The translations under genes were made by a program, and so were the position numbers. This document shows, piece by piece, positions 10,021-17,108 of a DNA stretch of 64,000 nt. The DNA is taken from the NCBI RefSeq assembly GCF_003426775.1, contig NZ_QJUG01000003.1, positions 1 to 64,000 on the forward strand, written 5' to 3'. The notes under the pieces were generated by a model, which ran no database searches, had not been told where the DNA came from, and saw nothing but the letters and a program-made list of their open reading frames with translations. Source of the DNA: Allorhizocola rhizosphaerae (GTDB taxonomy: Bacteria; Actinomycetota; Actinomycetes; Mycobacteriales; Micromonosporaceae). Each line of letters opens with the position of its first letter. Within the stretch, counting starts at the first letter, position 1.

Positions 10021-10043
10021 TCATCCGGACTCCGGGGTGTAGG
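10021..10043. repeat. Direct repeat, copy 2
   Basis: See 9957-9979; this copy contains the stop codon and last codons of the rhodanese gene. Confidence 0.75.
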
Positions 10044-10677
10044 TGCCGAGGAGCCGGCCGTCGGAGCTGGTGACGATGGCAAGGGCGACGCGGCGGCGGC
10101 GCATGCGTTCGTTGAGGTCCTTGACTTCCTCGCTGGGCCGCACCGTGCTCACGCCGAACGTCATGGCCTGCTCCGCGGTCAGCTCGCCCGGCTGGTGGTG
10201 CAGCGCGTCATGGGTGAGGATGCCCTGCAGGATGTGGTCGTCGGTCACGACACACAACTGCGCCTCGCGACCGAGCCTTTCCCGCAGCGCCGCGAGGGTC
10301 GTGTCGGTGGGGCAGGTGGGCACGTCGCGGTCGAGATGGTTGCCGACCAGATCGGCGTTGCCGTCAAACGGGAGACCGAAGGACAGCCAGTCCATCTTCC
10401 CGCCCGCGTAATCGTAGACCTGGCGCAAGCCGAGCCGCTGCAGCCGGACCGCCGCACGCGGGCTCATGTCGCACTCCGTGTTGTTGCAGTACGTGATCAC
10501 GGGCCGCTGTGTGTCCAGGGCTGCCGCACTGTCCGCGTCGAGCTCCTTGAGGTGCAGGTGGACTGCGCCGGGCAGGTGCGCCCACTCGTACTCCGGGCGC
10601 GGCAGCACCTCCACCAGCTGGGCCCGGTGCGACGCGATCAGCTGCAACACCGCGGCACGCTCCACGATCTCGACCAT
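10021..10677 (-). CDS. Rhodanese-domain protein with C-terminal CBS pair
   Basis: 218 residues, cytoplasmic. Residues ~5-105 are a rhodanese module (VEVLPRPEYEWAHLPGAVHLHL, then VITYCNNTECDMSPRAA); the Cys in this loop is the likely persulfide carrier. Residues ~115-215 resemble two CBS motifs (TDTTLAALRERLGREAQLCVVTDDHILQGILT, and a second ending VTSSDGRLLGTYT), which usually sense adenine nucleotides. The combination suggests sulfur transfer or redox signalling under nucleotide control. It is divergent from the DoxX-like gene at 10747. Confidence 0.75.
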   Translation of the reverse strand: MVEIVERAAVLQLIASHRAQLVEVLPRPEYEWAHLPGAVHLHLKELDADSAAALDTQRPVITYCNNTECDMSPRAAVRLQRLGLRQVYDYAGGKMDWLSFGLPFDGNADLVGNHLDRDVPTCPTDTTLAALRERLGREAQLCVVTDDHILQGILTHDALHHQPGELTAEQAMTFGVSTVRPSEEVKDLNERMRRRRVALAIVTSSDGRLLGTYTPESG

Positions 10678-10746: not shown

Positions 10747-11280
10747 ATGCTTGCCTGCCTACCGGCGCGGGAGTTGAATCGGCTGGTGAACACTTCATCC
10801 ACGAAGCTGGATCGCGCGCTGCTGGCCGTGGTCCGCGTGGGGCTCGGGTTCCTGTGGCTGGGGGGTGCCGGCTGGAAGGTGCCGCCGGAGTTCGCCGACC
10901 TGCGCCACTGGACGGGCTTCGCGGTGCAGTTTCCGGTCCTCCCCCCTTACACGTGGTTGGTGGAGCACGTGGTGTTGCCCAACTTCGCGTTCTTCGGCTG
11001 GGCCGTGCTGTTCCTTGAGGCTTCGCTGGGCGGCTTCCTCCTGGTCGGCCTCGGCACGCGATTCTGGGCGGTGCTCGGGATGGCCCAGACATTGGCCATC
11101 ATCTTTTCGGCGCTGCGGGCTCCGCACGAGTGGCCCTGGTCGTACTTCCTGATGTTCATGGCGCACCTGGCCGTTTTCGCCACGGCGGCCGGGCGCTATG
11201 CCGGAGTCGACGGCGTGTTGCGGCCCGCGTGGCAACGGTCCCGCTCGTGGCCGGCCCGGACCCTGGTGAGGGTGTCATGA
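10747..11280 (+). CDS. DoxX/DoxD-like membrane protein
   Basis: 177 residues from ATG 10747; an internal GTG (VNTSSTK) is possible. Four hydrophobic helices with the DoxX layout: an Arg-initiated first helix (ALLAVVRVGLGFLWLGGAGWKVPPEF), a long loop, and paired helices ending AHLAVFATAAGRYAGVDG. Relatives are thiosulfate:quinone oxidoreductase subunits or redox-linked membrane proteins. The stop overlaps the next gene by ATGA, so the two are translationally coupled. The divergent rhodanese gene fits a thiol/sulfur theme, but this is inference. Confidence 0.7.
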   Translation: MLACLPARELNRLVNTSSTKLDRALLAVVRVGLGFLWLGGAGWKVPPEFADLRHWTGFAVQFPVLPPYTWLVEHVVLPNFAFFGWAVLFLEASLGGFLLVGLGTRFWAVLGMAQTLAIIFSALRAPHEWPWSYFLMFMAHLAVFATAAGRYAGVDGVLRPAWQRSRSWPARTLVRVS

Positions 11281-11363
11281 GCGAGGGCTTGCCCGAGCGA
11301 ATCGAGGGGCATGCGCCGCGGAGCGCAGCGGAGGGACGCCACAGTAGCGAGGGCTTGCCCGAC
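11277..11363 (+). repeat. Start-codon-associated repeat, copy 1
   Basis: An 87-bp stretch beginning ATGAGCGAGGGCTTGCCC and containing GAGCGCAGCGGAG. It abuts the ATGAGCGC that probably was the original start at 11364. It is related to 63399-63490, which likewise abuts an ATGAGTGC start. The block GCGAGGGCTTGCCCGA occurs at both ends of this copy (around 11281 and 11347). Confidence 0.55.
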
Positions 11364-11720
11364 ATGAGCGCGCGGACCGCGGCCGACCGGGCCGCCGTGT
11401 GGCTGGGCGTCGCCTCGCCGGCGAGCCTGATTTTCCTTGTCCTCAAGCGGGAACTGCACTTCGTGCTGATCCCTCAGGCGGGCATCGCCGTTGCCATCGT
11501 GCTCGGCCTGCTGGCGATCGCCGGCGGCTGGCTACGTGTGCGGGCGGTGGTGCTCCTGGCGGGAGCCGGGTTCCTCGCGGCTGCCATCGCGCAAGTCGTG
11601 TTGCAAACCAACGGCTCCTCGCTCGCCACCAACAGCAACGGCTCCACGTTCGGGCTGTGGCTGGGGCTCGGCTTCGGCCTGCTGGCAGTCGCCCTCACCC
11701 GCGCGGACCCGACGCCCTGA
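11277..11720 (+). CDS. Small multi-helix membrane protein
   Basis: 147 residues if started at the ATG that overlaps the DoxX stop. Residues 1-29 (MSEGLPERIEGH...) are encoded by a dispersed repeat, so the ancestral start is probably the ATG at 11364 (MSARTAADRA), giving 118 residues. Four hydrophobic helices follow (~40-57, 63-80, 87-105, 125-140). No catalytic motif; function unknown. It is coupled to the DoxX-like gene. Confidence 0.65.
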   Translation: MSEGLPERIEGHAPRSAAEGRHSSEGLPDMSARTAADRAAVWLGVASPASLIFLVLKRELHFVLIPQAGIAVAIVLGLLAIAGGWLRVRAVVLLAGAGFLAAAIAQVVLQTNGSSLATNSNGSTFGLWLGLGFGLLAVALTRADPTP

Positions 11721-11755: not shown

Positions 11756-12598
11756 TCAGCGGCCATCGGAGGTTCGCGGCTGAGCCGTTCCCTGCCACCA
11801 CAGGGTGACCAGCTCGCGTCCGGATGAGCCGAGGTCGGGTGGGGTGTGCTCGCTGATTGCGTCGCGGCGCAGCGCGGCCGCGACATCGCCCGCGCGGTGC
11901 GGCGGCAGGCAGAGGCGGCGGCGGGTGACATCGACGAGCGTTTCAAAGCTCGCATACTCGGCCATCGGCGTGCGGGTCCACCGTTCGGATTCCACGTCGA
12001 GGCCGAGCGCCCGCAGCGCCGCGATGGCGTCCTCGGCCGTGGGGCCTTCCGGCCGGATGATGCCATGGAATTCTTTCCAGTACCGGTTCAGCTCCGCCAA
12101 CGGATGGCGCACCGTGATCTCGGCGATGACGACCCGGCGCGCATGCGAGGTCAGCGCCGCCACAAACGGCTCCAGCTCGGCGACGTTGTAGAGCACGTGA
12201 TGGCACAGCACCACGTCCGCCGGCTCGACCTCGCCCGCGACGTCGGGCCACCTGCCGCACACCAGCCGCGCCTGCACACCCAACGGCGCGGCACGCTTGC
12301 GCAGATCGTCGAGCAGTGGCCGATGCGAGTCCACGGCGGTCAGGCCGGTCAGCAACCGCGCGAGCGGCAGGCTGGCCGCCCCGGCCCCGGCCCCGATGTC
12401 GAGCACGGTGCCGCCGTCGCCGAGCGCCTGCACGGCCAGCCGATGCGACGCGCCTTCCGGATGCGCGATGTAGCGCTCGGCCCGCCGCGCGAACACCTCG
12501 TCGGGCAACACCCACGGCGACTCGTCCACCGCCAACAGGATCGACTCCGGGATGCGCCAGGCGGCCAGGTCGTCCGCCCACGCACGCAAAACGTTCAT
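11756..12598 (-). CDS. SAM-dependent methyltransferase (class I)
   Basis: 280 residues. Motif I is TVLDIGAGAGAASLPLA, followed by the acidic residue in LTAVDSHRP and motif IV-like ADVVLCHHVLYNVAEL. The N-terminal ~60 residues form a helical cap. The ATG overlaps the stop of the permease gene (ATGA), making it the last gene of the PhnD-PhnC-PhnE-like operon read from 14979 down. It may methylate the imported compound or its product. The His-His after motif IV is unusual. The substrate is unknown. Confidence 0.8.
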   Translation of the reverse strand: MNVLRAWADDLAAWRIPESILLAVDESPWVLPDEVFARRAERYIAHPEGASHRLAVQALGDGGTVLDIGAGAGAASLPLARLLTGLTAVDSHRPLLDDLRKRAAPLGVQARLVCGRWPDVAGEVEPADVVLCHHVLYNVAELEPFVAALTSHARRVVIAEITVRHPLAELNRYWKEFHGIIRPEGPTAEDAIAALRALGLDVESERWTRTPMAEYASFETLVDVTRRRLCLPPHRAGDVAAALRRDAISEHTPPDLGSSGRELVTLWWQGTAQPRTSDGR

Positions 12599-13365
12599 GA
12601 GGTCGCTCCCAATCTGCGGCGCACCGCGCGCGAGGCTCGATCGACAACCAGGATGATGGCGAGTATCGCAAGGATCAGCGTGGACAGTTCGTCGTACCGG
12701 AAAAGTTTGAGTGAGATGGCGAGCTCCTGCCCGATCCCACCGGCGCCGACGAAGCCCAGCACGGTCGAGGTGCGCAGATTGCACTCCCACTGATAGAGCA
12801 GCAGCGAGGCCAGTCCCGGCGCGGCCTGCGGGACGACGGCCAGCATGGCGGTGGCCGGGCGGCCCGCGCCGGTCAGCCGCAGCGCCTCGACCGGGCCGGG
12901 GTCCACCGCCTCCATCTGCTCGGCGCACAGCTTGGCCAACAGTCCCGCGCCGTGCACGGCCAATGCCATCGCACCGGCCGCCGCTCCCGGGCCGACCGTT
13001 GCCACGAACAGCAACGCCCACAACAGGTCTGGCACACCGCGCAGCATCGCCGCGACGACACGCGCCGCGGAGCGCAGCGGGCGCGGCGCCTGCACGTTGC
13101 CCGCGATCAGAAACGCCAGCGGCAGCCCGAGCAGAGCGGCAAACAGCAGGCCGGTCAACGAGATCTGCACCGTCTCGACCACCGCCGCGGCCACGTCGCC
13201 CAGGAACTCCCGCGAGAGGTCCGGCGACAGGAAGCCCTCGATCAGCGCGGCGGCCCCCTGCCTGCCCTGCACGAGCGCGGCGACGCTCACCCCGCTGCCG
13301 CTCACCGCCCATCCGAGGACGACAGCCAGCGCGGCCGTCCCGACCCACCGCGAAGTCGTCGTCAC
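12595..13365 (-). CDS. Phosphonate-type (PhnE-like) ABC permease
   Basis: 256 residues, GTG start overlapping the ATPase stop. About six transmembrane helices. The inner-membrane component signature appears near the end as EALRLTGAGRPATAMLAVVPQAAPG, and the sequence STVLGFVGAGGIGQEL matches PhnE-type permeases of phosphonate/phosphite importers. It forms the membrane channel with the ATPase at 13362-14072 and the binding protein at 14077-14979. Confidence 0.85.
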   Translation of the reverse strand: MTTTSRWVGTAALAVVLGWAVSGSGVSVAALVQGRQGAAALIEGFLSPDLSREFLGDVAAAVVETVQISLTGLLFAALLGLPLAFLIAGNVQAPRPLRSAARVVAAMLRGVPDLLWALLFVATVGPGAAAGAMALAVHGAGLLAKLCAEQMEAVDPGPVEALRLTGAGRPATAMLAVVPQAAPGLASLLLYQWECNLRTSTVLGFVGAGGIGQELAISLKLFRYDELSTLILAILAIILVVDRASRAVRRRLGATS

Positions 13366-14072
13366 GTGTAAATCTCCGCGCCGATGGTGGCACCGTCATG
13401 GGCCAGGCGCCCGTCGCGCAGCGCCAGGATGCGGGGGAACCGGCCCGCCACCGCCAGGTCGTGCGTCGCGACGATGACCGTCACCGAGCCGGGCAGCGCG
13501 CACAGCGCGTCCACGGCCGCCGCCGCGTTGACCGGGTCGAGCCCGCTGGTCGGCTCGTCGGCGAGGATCAGGCGCGGGCCGGGCAGCAGCGCACGGATGA
13601 GCGCGACCCGCTGCCGCTGCCCTCCGGACAGCTCACGCACCGGGGCGCTCAGTGACTCGGCGACGCCGTGGCGTTCGGCGAGCGTGCCGAGCCGGACGGC
13701 GTAACGACTCGGCACGCGTCCACACAGGACGGTCAACCAATCGCGCACCGTCCACTCTGGACTGCTACCCATAAAAGCATTTGTCCGGGCAGTCAGACCC
13801 GGCACCAGATCGCCGCCCTGCCGGATGACACCGGTGGCGCGGCGCACGGCCCGGCGCTGCGCCGCGGAATACGGGTCCATCCCGCCCACCCGCACGGACC
13901 CGGTGGCGCAGACCGCGCCCAGCAGCGCACGCAGCAATGTGGACTTGCCCGCGCCGGACGGCCCGAGCAGCGCGACGTGCTCCCCCGCGGCGATCCGCAG
14001 GCTCAGCCCGTCGACCGCGCGCAACCGGCGGTGCGCGAAGTCGACCGTCAGATCACTGGTGTGGATGTCCAC
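13362..14072 (-). CDS. Phosphonate-type (PhnC-like) ABC ATPase
   Basis: 236 residues. Walker A GPSGAGKST, Q-loop GVIRQGG, signature LSGGQRQR, Walker B LILADEP and the switch His in VATHD are all intact. It is slightly shorter than PhnC proteins (~250-270). It begins 4 bp after the binding-protein gene and overlaps the permease gene, a compact operon. It powers import of whatever the PhnD-like lipoprotein binds. Confidence 0.87.
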   Translation of the reverse strand: MDIHTSDLTVDFAHRRLRAVDGLSLRIAAGEHVALLGPSGAGKSTLLRALLGAVCATGSVRVGGMDPYSAAQRRAVRRATGVIRQGGDLVPGLTARTNAFMGSSPEWTVRDWLTVLCGRVPSRYAVRLGTLAERHGVAESLSAPVRELSGGQRQRVALIRALLPGPRLILADEPTSGLDPVNAAAAVDALCALPGSVTVIVATHDLAVAGRFPRILALRDGRLAHDGATIGAEIYT

Positions 14073-14076
14073 TCGT

Positions 14077-14979
14077 TCAGCCGTTCGTGGTGAGCAGGCC
14101 GAGATCCGTGGCGGCGCGCCGGATCGGTTCGTAGTCGGCAGGGGTGACCGCCGTGTATCCCTTGGCCCGCATCAGATCGAGCAGCACCGTGTCCTGAATG
14201 GACACGAACGCGTCGGCGAGCGCGGCCCGCGCCGGTTCACCGAGGGCCGCGCGCATCACCCACGGATAGCCCTGGACGCGGCGCTCGGCGATGACGCGCA
14301 ACCTGCCGGCCGGCACCTTGCCCTCCTTCTCCAGGCGGCGCAGGATCCGAAGCTCGATGCCGCCCGCGTCCGCCTGCCCGCTCAGCACCGCTTGCGCGGT
14401 CGCGTCGTGGCCGCCGGTGAAGCTGACCCTGCGCAGTGGCGGGCATTCGTCGACCTTGCGCGGCGAGCATTTCGCCCCCGCGTCCGCGAGCATGAGGCGC
14501 GGATACAGGCTGCCAGAAGTGGAGCTGACGTCGCCGAACGCGAACGACCGTCCGGCTTGGACGATGTCGGCGCGCAGGTCACGATGGGGCACGTCGTCGC
14601 GGACCACGATGGCCGACACATACTCCGCCGTGCCCGTCTCGTGGTCGATCTCGGTGACCAGCGGCGTGAGCTTCGCCTGCTGCTCGGCCTGCACATAGGT
14701 GAGCCCGCCCAGATAGGCCAGGTCGATCCGCCCACCGGCGAGCGCCGCCACCACGCCCGCGTAGTCGGCCGCGACGAACAGCTCCACCTTGACGCCCAGG
14801 CGTTGGCGCAGGTGCTCGGCGAACGGTTCATACTTGGCGCGCTGCTGCTCCGGCGCGATGTTGGGGATCAGGCCGACACGAAGCGTTTCCGGAAGCCCGT
14901 TTTCTTCAGAAGCTTTTCCTCCAGTACACGCCGAGGCGAACACGAGCGTCAGGACGATCAAGGACACGAGTCGGCGCAC
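14077..14979 (-). CDS. PhnD-like solute-binding lipoprotein
   Basis: 300 residues. The signal ends in ASAC (Cys18). The body matches the phosphate/phosphite/phosphonate-binding family: RVGLIPNIAPEQQRAKYEPFAEHLRQRLGVKVELFVAADYAGVVAALAGGRIDLAYLGG, then DVSSTSGSLYPRLML. The SSTSG loop binds the oxyanion in PhnD/PtxB proteins. It is the first gene of the operon 14979-11756 and is divergent from the AhpD-like/radical SAM pair. From memory, mycobacteria have a similar pairing (Rv1680, PhnD-like, with Rv1681, radical SAM). Confidence 0.85.
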   Translation of the reverse strand: MRRLVSLIVLTLVFASACTGGKASEENGLPETLRVGLIPNIAPEQQRAKYEPFAEHLRQRLGVKVELFVAADYAGVVAALAGGRIDLAYLGGLTYVQAEQQAKLTPLVTEIDHETGTAEYVSAIVVRDDVPHRDLRADIVQAGRSFAFGDVSSTSGSLYPRLMLADAGAKCSPRKVDECPPLRRVSFTGGHDATAQAVLSGQADAGGIELRILRRLEKEGKVPAGRLRVIAERRVQGYPWVMRAALGEPARAALADAFVSIQDTVLLDLMRAKGYTAVTPADYEPIRRAATDLGLLTTNG

Positions 14980-15074
14980 GCCTACAACGGAACCATGCGC
15001 GTGCCGGTTCGTGTCTTACGAAACGATGACATCCTTGAGTGCGTCGATGACAACACGAGCACGGGCCGCCTAGC

Positions 15075-15635
15075 GTGATCGCCGTGACTGCCGTCCGTCT
15101 GCTCGCCGCCGCCGACGCCCCGCTGCTGGCTGCTCCGTATTACCGGGGCGGCGACCCGGGCCCGATCGTGCGCTCGCTGGCCCACGTGCCCGAGCTGCTG
15201 GAGGCGGCCATGCCGTTCATCGGTGTGGCGCTCGGGCCGTCGGGGATCCCGTGGCGGACCAAGGAGCTGGTGATAGTCCGGGTTTCCGCGCGGGCCGGGT
15301 GTCGGTACTGCGTGCAGGCGCACACCGCCGTCGCGCTCGACGCGGGCCTGACGCGCGACGAGATCCTGGCGCTGCGGCTCGCACACGACTTCCGGCAGGT
15401 GTTCACCGATCCACGCGAACGCGCGGTGATCGCCTGGTCCGATGCCGCGACATCGTTGACCCCGCCCGACCCGCAGACGCGGGCGGAGGCGGCCGAGCAC
15501 CTCGCCGAGCACGAACTGGTCGAGTTGACCGTCCTCGCCGGGGCCACGCTGATGCTCAACCGGCTCGCGACGATGCTCGAATTGCCCACGGCGCCAAGCA
15601 CTCTGGCCCGTCTCAACGAGCTGGCTCTCGCATGA
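15075..15635 (+). CDS. AhpD-like (carboxymuconolactone decarboxylase family) protein
   Basis: 186 residues from GTG 15075 (GTG 15084 also possible). It is all-helical with the redox motif CRYCVQAH around residue 77, the CxxC...H of AhpD-type peroxidase adaptors, followed by TAVALDAGLTRDEILAL. Such proteins reduce peroxides or accept thiol electrons; some act in ring-cleavage pathways. It overlaps the radical SAM gene by ATGA, so the pair is co-translated, and it is divergent from the PhnD-like operon. Confidence 0.8.
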   Translation: MIAVTAVRLLAAADAPLLAAPYYRGGDPGPIVRSLAHVPELLEAAMPFIGVALGPSGIPWRTKELVIVRVSARAGCRYCVQAHTAVALDAGLTRDEILALRLAHDFRQVFTDPRERAVIAWSDAATSLTPPDPQTRAEAAEHLAEHELVELTVLAGATLMLNRLATMLELPTAPSTLARLNELALA

Positions 15636-16459
15636 GCGAGATCGCTGAAGCGGTAGCCGGTGGGCGGCTGCCGGGTCGGCTTTGGATGTATGCCAACTAC
15701 CACTGCAACCTGGCGTGCACCTACTGCCTGACCGAATCTGCGCCGCAGGTGCCGCGCCGCGAACTGGGCCCAACCCGCATGGTCGAGATCGCGCGGGAGG
15801 CGTCCGAGCTCGGCTTCACCGACCTCGGCGTCACGGGGGGCGAGCCGTTCCTGCTCATGTGGCTGCCGCAGACGCTGGCCGAGATGGCAACGCATCTGCC
15901 CGTGCTGGTGCTGACCAACGGCACACTGTTCAGCCCGAAGCGGCTGGCCCGGCTGGAGCCGATCCGCGGGAGCTCCGTGGCCATGCAGATCTCGCTGGAC
16001 CGGCCCGATCCCGACGCCAACGACGAGATGCGCGGCGCGGAAAACTTCGCCAAGGTCGTCGACGCCATCCCGCGTTTGGTAGATCTAGGCATTAGGGTAC
16101 GCATCGCGACCACCGTGGAGTCCATTGAGGACGCTGAGCTGGACCGCCTGTGCGCGCTGCACCGACAGCTGGGCGTGCCCGACGAAGACCACGTCATCCG
16201 ACCCATCGTGCGCCGCGGCCGGGCCGTGGACTACCGGCTCGGGGTCGACGCCCAGCGCGATGACCTGCCCGCCGAGCTGACCATCACCACCGACGGGGCC
16301 TACTGGAGCCCGTTCGGTCCGACCGTCCACAGTGGAGTCGTCGGCACCGACCTGCTGATCACGCGCACCACGAGCCCGCTGAGCGTGCCCGCCAACGCCC
16401 TGCTGCGATTGGTCGAGGCCCGGCCACCGGGCGACGACATGACGCTCAATATCCGTTGA
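15632..16459 (+). CDS. Radical SAM enzyme (Rv1681-like)
   Basis: 275 residues. The cluster motif CNLACTYC (Cys at about 30, 34, 37) ligates the 4Fe-4S centre; TGGEPFLL is the SAM-binding GGE motif, and VLVLTNGTLF the next strand. The core is compact, with no SPASM cysteines visible in the C-terminus, so it probably carries one cluster. Overlap with the AhpD-like gene and divergence from the PhnDCE-like operon suggest a shared pathway. The substrate is unknown; small-molecule or peptide modification are both open. Confidence 0.82.
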   Translation: MSEIAEAVAGGRLPGRLWMYANYHCNLACTYCLTESAPQVPRRELGPTRMVEIAREASELGFTDLGVTGGEPFLLMWLPQTLAEMATHLPVLVLTNGTLFSPKRLARLEPIRGSSVAMQISLDRPDPDANDEMRGAENFAKVVDAIPRLVDLGIRVRIATTVESIEDAELDRLCALHRQLGVPDEDHVIRPIVRRGRAVDYRLGVDAQRDDLPAELTITTDGAYWSPFGPTVHSGVVGTDLLITRTTSPLSVPANALLRLVEARPPGDDMTLNIR

Positions 16460-16625: not shown

Positions 16626-17108
16626 ATGTTCATCCGTTCCTTCGTTCAGCCTGACCTCCCACGGCTGGTCGAGCTGACCATCGAGACCTTCGGACCGTTC
16701 TACGAGCAGTCGTTCCGGCGCATCGTTGGCGAGGCCGTTTTCGCCAACCAGCACGGCAACTGGCGCGACGACTACCGCACGCAAGTGCCGCAGCTGCACG
16801 ACCCGAGCCAGCACAGGCAGGTCGCGGTCGCGCAGGTCGACGAGATCATCGTCGGTTATGTGGCGTGGAGCGTCGATCCGGCGCGCAAAAACGCCACCAT
16901 CGTGATGCTGGCGACGTCAGCCGACCATCGCAGACACGGACTCGGCACGGCGCTTTGCGAACACGCCTTCGCGCACATGCGATCGCTTGGCGCCGAGGTG
17001 GTCGAGATCGGCACCGGCGGCGACCCGTTCCATGCACCCGCGAGGGCCTTGTACGAAAGCCTCGGGTGCACCCTGTTCCCGGTCGCGCACTATTTCCGCC
17101 AGCTCTGA
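16626..17108 (+). CDS. GNAT-family N-acetyltransferase
   Basis: 160 residues, ATG 16626 with GAAAGG about 10 bases upstream. Standard GNAT layout: FIRSFVQPDLPRLVELTIETF, the central strand VAQVDEIIVGYVAWSVD, motif A (MLATSADHRRHGLGTALCEHAF, the acetyl-CoA R/QxxGxG/A loop as RRHGLG) and motif B (ARALYESLGC). The substrate amine cannot be named. It is monocistronic, between a 5' hairpin and a strong terminator. Confidence 0.83.
   Translation: MFIRSFVQPDLPRLVELTIETFGPFYEQSFRRIVGEAVFANQHGNWRDDYRTQVPQLHDPSQHRQVAVAQVDEIIVGYVAWSVDPARKNATIVMLATSADHRRHGLGTALCEHAFAHMRSLGAEVVEIGTGGDPFHAPARALYESLGCTLFPVAHYFRQL

Follow-up and report, generated by a model that had tools for sequence, protein, structure and literature searches.

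Which compound does the importer encoded between positions 11,756 and 16,459 of the window bring into the cell, and how does its uptake relate to the radical S-adenosylmethionine (SAM) enzyme encoded next to it? The window is a stretch of 64,000 nucleotides from the actinomycete Allorhizocola rhizosphaerae (contig NZ_QJUG01000003.1), and the locus combines an ATP-binding cassette (ABC) importer and a methyltransferase with a thiol-redox protein and the radical SAM enzyme on the other side of a divergent intergenic region. We tentatively propose, with a probability of about 0.38, that it forms a cassette for the uptake and conversion of a metalloid oxyanion, where selenium, in the form of selenite, is slightly favoured over arsenic. 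The gene set of importer and radical SAM enzyme is conserved, and its relatives, which include the Rv1678-Rv1681 genes of mycobacteria, are scattered through Actinobacteria.

A preliminary description had listed a binding lipoprotein, an ATPase, a permease and a methyltransferase opposite to an AhpD-like protein and a radical SAM enzyme across a 95-bp gap, and all six genes were found again by their positions and their Pfam and NCBIfam matches. On the minus strand reside a class I SAM-dependent methyltransferase that is not ArsM-like (11756-12598; PF13649, 39 bits), a PhnE-type permease (12595-13365; TIGR01097, 246 bits at an equivalog cut-off of 217), a PhnC-like ATPase (13362-14072; PF00005, with TIGR02315 as best NCBIfam match at 124 bits, below its cut-off of 266) and a substrate-binding protein (SBP) of the oxyanion-binding type, a lipoprotein with its lipobox cysteine at C18 (14077-14979; TIGR01098, 184 bits, cut-off 112). 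The intergenic region (14980-15074) is followed on the plus strand by a thiol-redox protein of the CMD/AhpD fold (15075-15635; PF02627, 61 bits, and TIGR00778 above cut-off) and by the 275-residue radical SAM enzyme (15632-16459; PF04055, 64 bits, cut-off 29.5), whose CX3CX2C motif is formed by C25, C29 and C32. Neighbouring genes mostly overlap by 4 bp, with the ATPase and SBP genes separated by a gap of 4 bp.

A scan with the radical SAM sequence against the genomes of 84,980 species found 11 loci, and genomes of the same order, phylum and family brought their number to 46, whose neighbourhoods were examined up to 20 kb, with genes of the relatives called by a simple codon-usage procedure. 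The complete set of six genes recurs in unchanged order in three Nonomuraea genomes, with identities of 67-85%, and a fourth (G907) has kept at least the CMD protein, the radical SAM enzyme, the SBP and the permease. Within the clade of the window enzyme (clade A), a CMD gene adjoins the radical SAM gene in 20 of 20 loci (19 by clustering, L045 by tblastn) and, by our own count, DoxX homologues are close in 18. Across the family, 24 of the 46 loci encode a protein of the PhnD fold near the enzyme; these proteins occur in several arrangements and belong to four subfamilies (the window and Nonomuraea type, the TIGR04553 type, the type found with clade C and the cytosolic Rv1680 type). The chance expectation, based on eight PF12974 matches in the 8.8-Mb genome of A. 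rhizosphaerae, would be only a few per cent. These co-occurrence counts are incompletely corrected for shared ancestry, and linkage is under-counted because many of the genomes are drafts. On the tree of the enzyme, the label of a nearby SBP changes 9 times compared to an average of 15.7 after shuffling, which indicates that nearby SBPs cluster, yet that they were gained or lost several times. The conserved actinobacterial co-occurrence of a PhnD-like SBP with the radical SAM enzyme, which had been suggested before, is thus borne out by the neighbourhoods. The closest relatives of the window enzyme are found in Nonomuraea, at about 85% identity, and clade A is missing from all of 300 further genomes of the family to which A. 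rhizosphaerae belongs, which suggests that the locus was acquired by horizontal transfer.

The same counts bear on the trivial explanation of an ordinary phosphate or phosphonate importer placed by chance beside an unrelated redox pair. Such a role would fit a permease that exceeds the cut-off of the PhnE model; it is highly improbable and largely refuted by the co-occurrence, since the linkage is recurrent and independent, the SBP falls short of the PhnD model (TIGR03431, 181 bits, cut-off 261) and C-P (carbon-phosphorus) lyase is absent. PhnJ was detected in none of the 21 clade-A genomes, including that of A. rhizosphaerae, with a positive control in E. coli, which argues against phosphonate use and for which reason a plain C-P lyase system was rejected. 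The preliminary description had itself named a lack of co-occurrence, or a plain phosphate or phosphonate binder with unrelated neighbours, as findings that would speak against it, and neither of them was encountered in full, as co-occurrence exists and C-P lyase is missing from these genomes.

What the importer may carry is reflected in the pocket of its SBP. In a structural search with its predicted model (predicted local distance difference test score, pLDDT, 89), PtxB accounts for each of the twelve top PDB matches, either in complex with phosphite or methylphosphonate or in apo form, and it is also the best PDB match by sequence, at about 30% identity. The ligand residues described for PtxB are Y49, Y94, S124-T125-S126, H155, the cap residue Y203, and D16 (PMC5700983). 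With Y73, Y120, S153-T154-S155, H191 and Y238, the window SBP has conserved all of these up to the cap tyrosine, and the cap-stabilising D16 corresponds to N40 in the window protein and in Nonomuraea. The STS motif and the histidine are invariant in 15 lipoprotein SBPs and lost in the Rv1680 type. The pocket contains residues of the oxyanion type and, as judged from alignment and model, appears PtxB-like and suited for a small XO3-type anion; a site shaped for HPO3(2-) should also fit trigonal-pyramidal selenite or arsenite. Phosphite itself would be the ligand if the radical SAM enzyme drew on its P-H bond in the synthesis of an organophosphorus compound, or if the importer merely supplied reduced phosphorus. 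This we regard as very unlikely: although PtxB phosphite binders are the nearest solved structures by sequence and fold, and the cap tyrosine responsible for the P-H...pi contact has its counterpart in Y238, its partner D16 is replaced by N40, no gene resembling phosphite dehydrogenase (PtxD) is apparent among the annotated neighbours, in which no PtxD-specific search was made, PhnJ is absent from the clade-A genomes, and the neighbouring selenocysteine (Sec) and ArsM genes of relatives would be left unexplained.

The radical SAM enzymes of the 46 loci fall into three clades. Clade A, which is linked to CMD proteins, is monophyletic at 100/100 support and sister to clades B and C at the drawn midpoint root, and its three motif cysteines C25, C29 and C32 are invariant in 12 aligned sequences, as expected for a member of the superfamily. 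Clade B comprises the Rv1681 type, as illustrated by L050 with 537 bits against NF049973 (cut-off 380); its enzymes carry a TusA-like N-terminus (hhalign probability 99%) and the genes follow the order DoxX/Rv1678, FadE16, SBP and radical SAM enzyme. In three loci of this clade (L107, L110 and L111) we find an operon of an ArsP_1 permease, a TusA-like protein, a TusA-fused radical SAM enzyme and a TPMT-like methyltransferase, with no SBP (L107:9001-11973). In clade C, the enzyme is fused to a calcineurin-like metallophosphoesterase domain (PF12850) and neighboured by ArsM-like methyltransferases, PhnDEC and PstS-type transporters, aldehyde dehydrogenase, or TIGR04282/TIGR04283 transferases. 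These fusions, found in L098:8839-10536, L057:9552-11246 and 11 other loci, contain extra conserved cysteines in their N-terminal region. ArsS was rejected as identity of the window enzyme based on its score against TIGR04167 (39 bits, cut-off 300).

A structure search with the window enzyme returned matches at the superfamily level only, with maturases of ribosomally synthesized and post-translationally modified peptides (RiPPs) and MoaA as best neighbours. This resemblance would suit a radical SAM and CMD pair whose substrate is an organic metabolite, a peptide or an RNA, where the importer would share its regulation for some other purpose, for instance to supply a cofactor element, and since only 9 of the 20 clade-A loci encode an importer within 10 kb, the pair can lack it locally. 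We nevertheless consider such a function quite unlikely, as no small conserved open reading frame (ORF) or peptide precursor was seen, the enzyme's only four cysteines leave no SPASM-type auxiliary cluster, and SBPs have joined it several times independently, as reflected in the label changes on its tree.

If the cassette acts on a metalloid, its components can be arranged into a pathway, whose order of steps is likewise conjectural. The lipoprotein would bind the XO3-type oxyanion in its PtxB-like pocket for import by PhnC and PhnE, and the CMD/AhpD protein and DoxX, with further thiol partners that in relatives are TusA, rhodanese and redoxin, might reduce the element and keep it thiol-reactive. 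By analogy to the radical transfer catalysed by ArsS, an adenosylation, and by ArsL, an aminocarboxypropyl transfer (PMC12159101), the radical SAM enzyme may then convert the imported anion by moving a group from SAM onto the element, most likely the 5'-deoxyadenosyl group that ArsS transfers. This would create a C-Se or C-As bond, and capping or detoxification of the product would fall to the methyltransferase. Several observations are consistent with this scheme. The CxxC..H motif of the CMD protein is invariant in a 19-sequence alignment, which places it in the AhpD/CMD family, and thiol or sulfur proteins (CMD, DoxX, TusA, rhodanese and redoxin) recur across the loci. The methyltransferase is 68-71% identical in three Nonomuraea loci (L039, L040 and L047), with three cysteines conserved in the aligned orthologues, and elsewhere different methyltransferase families, TPMT-like (c7) or ArsM-like (c31), accompany the radical SAM enzyme. 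In several relatives, nucleoside phosphorylases and TIGR04282/TIGR04283 transferases are found nearby, which would fit an adenosyl intermediate that is converted to a sugar conjugate.

Several findings speak for selenium. The SBPs of L041, from Pseudonocardia, L042, from Actinomycetospora, both sister clade-A loci, and L108 exceed the cut-off of TIGR04553 (328, 352 and 307 bits, cut-off 250), a family termed 'putative selenate'. In L041, SelD (313 bits), SelA (399), SelB (246) and tRNA-Sec lie within 13 kb around a series of CMD, radical SAM, DoxX, SBP, ATPase and permease genes, and in N. basaltis (L039) a convincing tRNA-Sec follows about 80 bp after the radical SAM gene. A further candidate in L095 was rejected as false positive, as this ARAGORN call falls within the ORF of a response regulator and has a poor fold. 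SelD is found in 19 of 21 clade-A genomes compared to 240 of 396 (61%) in a sample of the phylum (p about 0.003, not corrected for the tree). For the assignment of selenium, genome co-occurrence alone was rejected as a basis and retained as modest enrichment only.

Against selenium, and in part against a metalloid altogether, stand several of our results. The enrichment of SelD is modest and the gene is found in only 1 of 12 clade-B genomes; within Nonomuraea, the difference between all genomes (38 of 55) and the four carriers (4 of 4) is not significant, and with this prevalence in phylum and genus the presence of SelD is weak evidence. Of the roughly 20 clade-A loci, only two touch Sec genes. 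The name of TIGR04553 is putative only and, like that of the arsenosugar families, was itself assigned from context, hence neither constitutes independent proof; our literature search on TIGR04553, TIGR04282 and the Sao proteins found no function. The window SBP remains below the TIGR04553 cut-off (145 versus 250 bits) and is closest to phosphite binders, the window contains no tRNA, and its cassette no selenium or arsenic gene. Finally, the similarity of the radical SAM enzyme to ArsS is limited to the superfamily core and its predicted structure is of mediocre quality (pLDDT 71).

An alternative element is arsenic, which would be imported as arsenite or arsenate and converted by a radical SAM enzyme that replaces ArsS to adenosylated or other organoarsenicals, from which transferases encoded elsewhere in the genome could make arsenosugar-like products. 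ArsM-like methyltransferases (NF040538, 345 bits, below the cut-off of 500) are part of clade-C operons with a PhnDEC or PstS-type system (L052, L054, L056 and L057), and about 7 kb from the clade-A radical SAM gene of genome G267 lies an ArsM-like gene (L091:1535-2345) whose in-frame TGA likely encodes selenocysteine. TIGR04282, named as arsenosugar glycosyltransferase, is present at E<=2e-32 in all 16 genomes with the enzyme among the 396 of the phylum sample, compared to about 89 of the 396 overall, as counted by eye; none of 32 genomes has an ArsS above cut-off, and ArsP_1 permeases adjoin the clade-B enzymes of L107, L110 and L111. We still consider arsenic as substrate of the window cassette doubtful, since its methyltransferase is not ArsM-like, its SBP appears to have no cysteine in the region of the arsenite-binding cysteine of AioX, and on a different contig of the same genome lies a PhnD-ArsM-ArsI locus (G000:C13; L134:8180-13011 and L135:3496-7856) where arsenic may be handled. 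Besides an ArsI/CadI VOC enzyme, this locus outside the window encodes three PhnD-type SBPs with two permeases and one ATPase, as well as ArsM at 286 bits and a further ArsM-like protein that scores 326 bits against the model of the arsinothricin ArsM, and its presence slightly favours selenium for the window cassette.

The relationship to mycobacteria proposed in the preliminary description holds in part. The pairing with Rv1680-Rv1681 reflects a real tie: the window radical SAM enzyme is 40% identical to the Rv1681 type over 257 residues, and the upstream flank, which had been overlooked, contains both halves of Rv1678 as separate genes. These are a DoxX/DoxD membrane protein corresponding to the N-terminal half (about 10747-11280, with an uncertain start codon, plus strand; PF04173 above cut-off), which is 41% identical over 151 residues to the DoxX part of the intact Rv1678-type protein in L050, and a membrane protein corresponding to the C-terminal half (11277-11720, plus strand; NF049986, 78 bits, cut-off 50), so that the tie is visible inside the window. 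In contrast, the window enzyme was rejected as Rv1681 equivalog, as it scores 226.6 bits against NF049973 at a cut-off of 380, and belongs to the separate clade A; it also lacks the TusA-like N-terminal segment of clade B. A role in uptake cannot be transferred to mycobacteria, as Rv1680-type proteins have no signal peptide, no adjoining ATPase or permease and no STS-H oxyanion motif, and Rv1680 was rejected as uptake protein. Our literature search found no paper that gives a function for Rv1680 or Rv1681.

In the divergent region of the window (14980-15074), a block (CTTACGAA..TGAC.TC..GCGTCG.TGAC) is common to three aligned Nonomuraea genomes; the approximately 40 bp that are kept might act as a shared operator, and a scan of the region found no sigma-70-like promoter. 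Divergent from the DoxX gene lies a protein combining rhodanese and CBS domains (10021-10677, minus strand; PF00581, 48 bits, and PF00571, 43 bits), which is loosely associated, with matches of 33-35% in L042-L044. In the same three Actinomycetospora loci, an ArsR-family regulator fused to a rhodanese is encoded near the cassette (L042:4667-5347, with homologues in L043 and L044). A GNAT acetyltransferase directly 3' of the window cassette (16626-17108) has no clear conserved link to it. Elsewhere in the A. rhizosphaerae genome (G000:C447; L114:8041-12798), a TIGR04282-like transferase, a nucleoside phosphorylase, a sugar epimerase and a GT2 protein are encoded together; the epimerase is 68% identical to one near a clade-B radical SAM gene, and an odd 98-nt tRNA-Ser(act) is located at L114:6304-6401.

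Collectively, a single local observation has expanded into three clades of radical SAM enzymes with a common parts list and few candidate ligands. Formation of a C-Se bond would, if true, extend the metalloid chemistry of these enzymes beyond arsenic. In its furthest form, which we consider unlikely, our proposal is that of an importer dedicated to selenite and a radical SAM enzyme forming a C-Se bond, which would together constitute a SelD-independent route to organoselenium compounds and the first transport system specific for selenium in bacteria, with related clades carrying out parallel reactions with arsenic and the M. tuberculosis genes Rv1678-Rv1681 as a derived branch. No specific high-affinity selenium transporter has been established in prokaryotes (PMC13188914, PMC11097638), and both the question of selenium transport and that of Rv1680/Rv1681 function become testable through this family.

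With respect to known systems, the SBP resembles PtxB of the PtxABC transporters, its top PDB matches, in the residues that contact the ligand oxygens and the cap tyrosine, and differs from it in N40 and in the company of radical SAM, CMD and methyltransferase genes. The putative selenate transporters of TIGR04553 are represented by the SBPs of sister clade-A loci, to which the window SBP is only 28-32% identical. The arsenosugar pathway (ArsM, ArsS, the TIGR04169 CMD protein and TIGR04282/TIGR04283) has parallel parts across the family, namely a radical SAM enzyme, a methyltransferase, a CMD protein and an oxyanion importer, and in relatives a phosphorylase and the same transferases, whereas the window enzyme is not ArsS, its CMD protein reaches 21 bits against TIGR04169 (cut-off 120) and ArsM is absent from the cassette. 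The arsinothricin cluster arsQML likewise combines a radical SAM enzyme with a methyltransferase acting on a metalloid, although without PhnDCE and CMD proteins, and its ArsL is a longer, noncanonical radical SAM enzyme of 428 residues (PMC8552651). The mycobacterial Rv1678-Rv1679-Rv1680-Rv1681 cluster (NF049986, NF049984, NF049985 and NF049973) shares the homologous radical SAM enzyme, Rv1678, here split into two genes, and a PhnD-fold protein beside the enzyme; in contrast to this cluster, the window locus lacks FadE16 and the TusA-like extension and instead contains a CMD protein and an ABC importer with a true lipoprotein.

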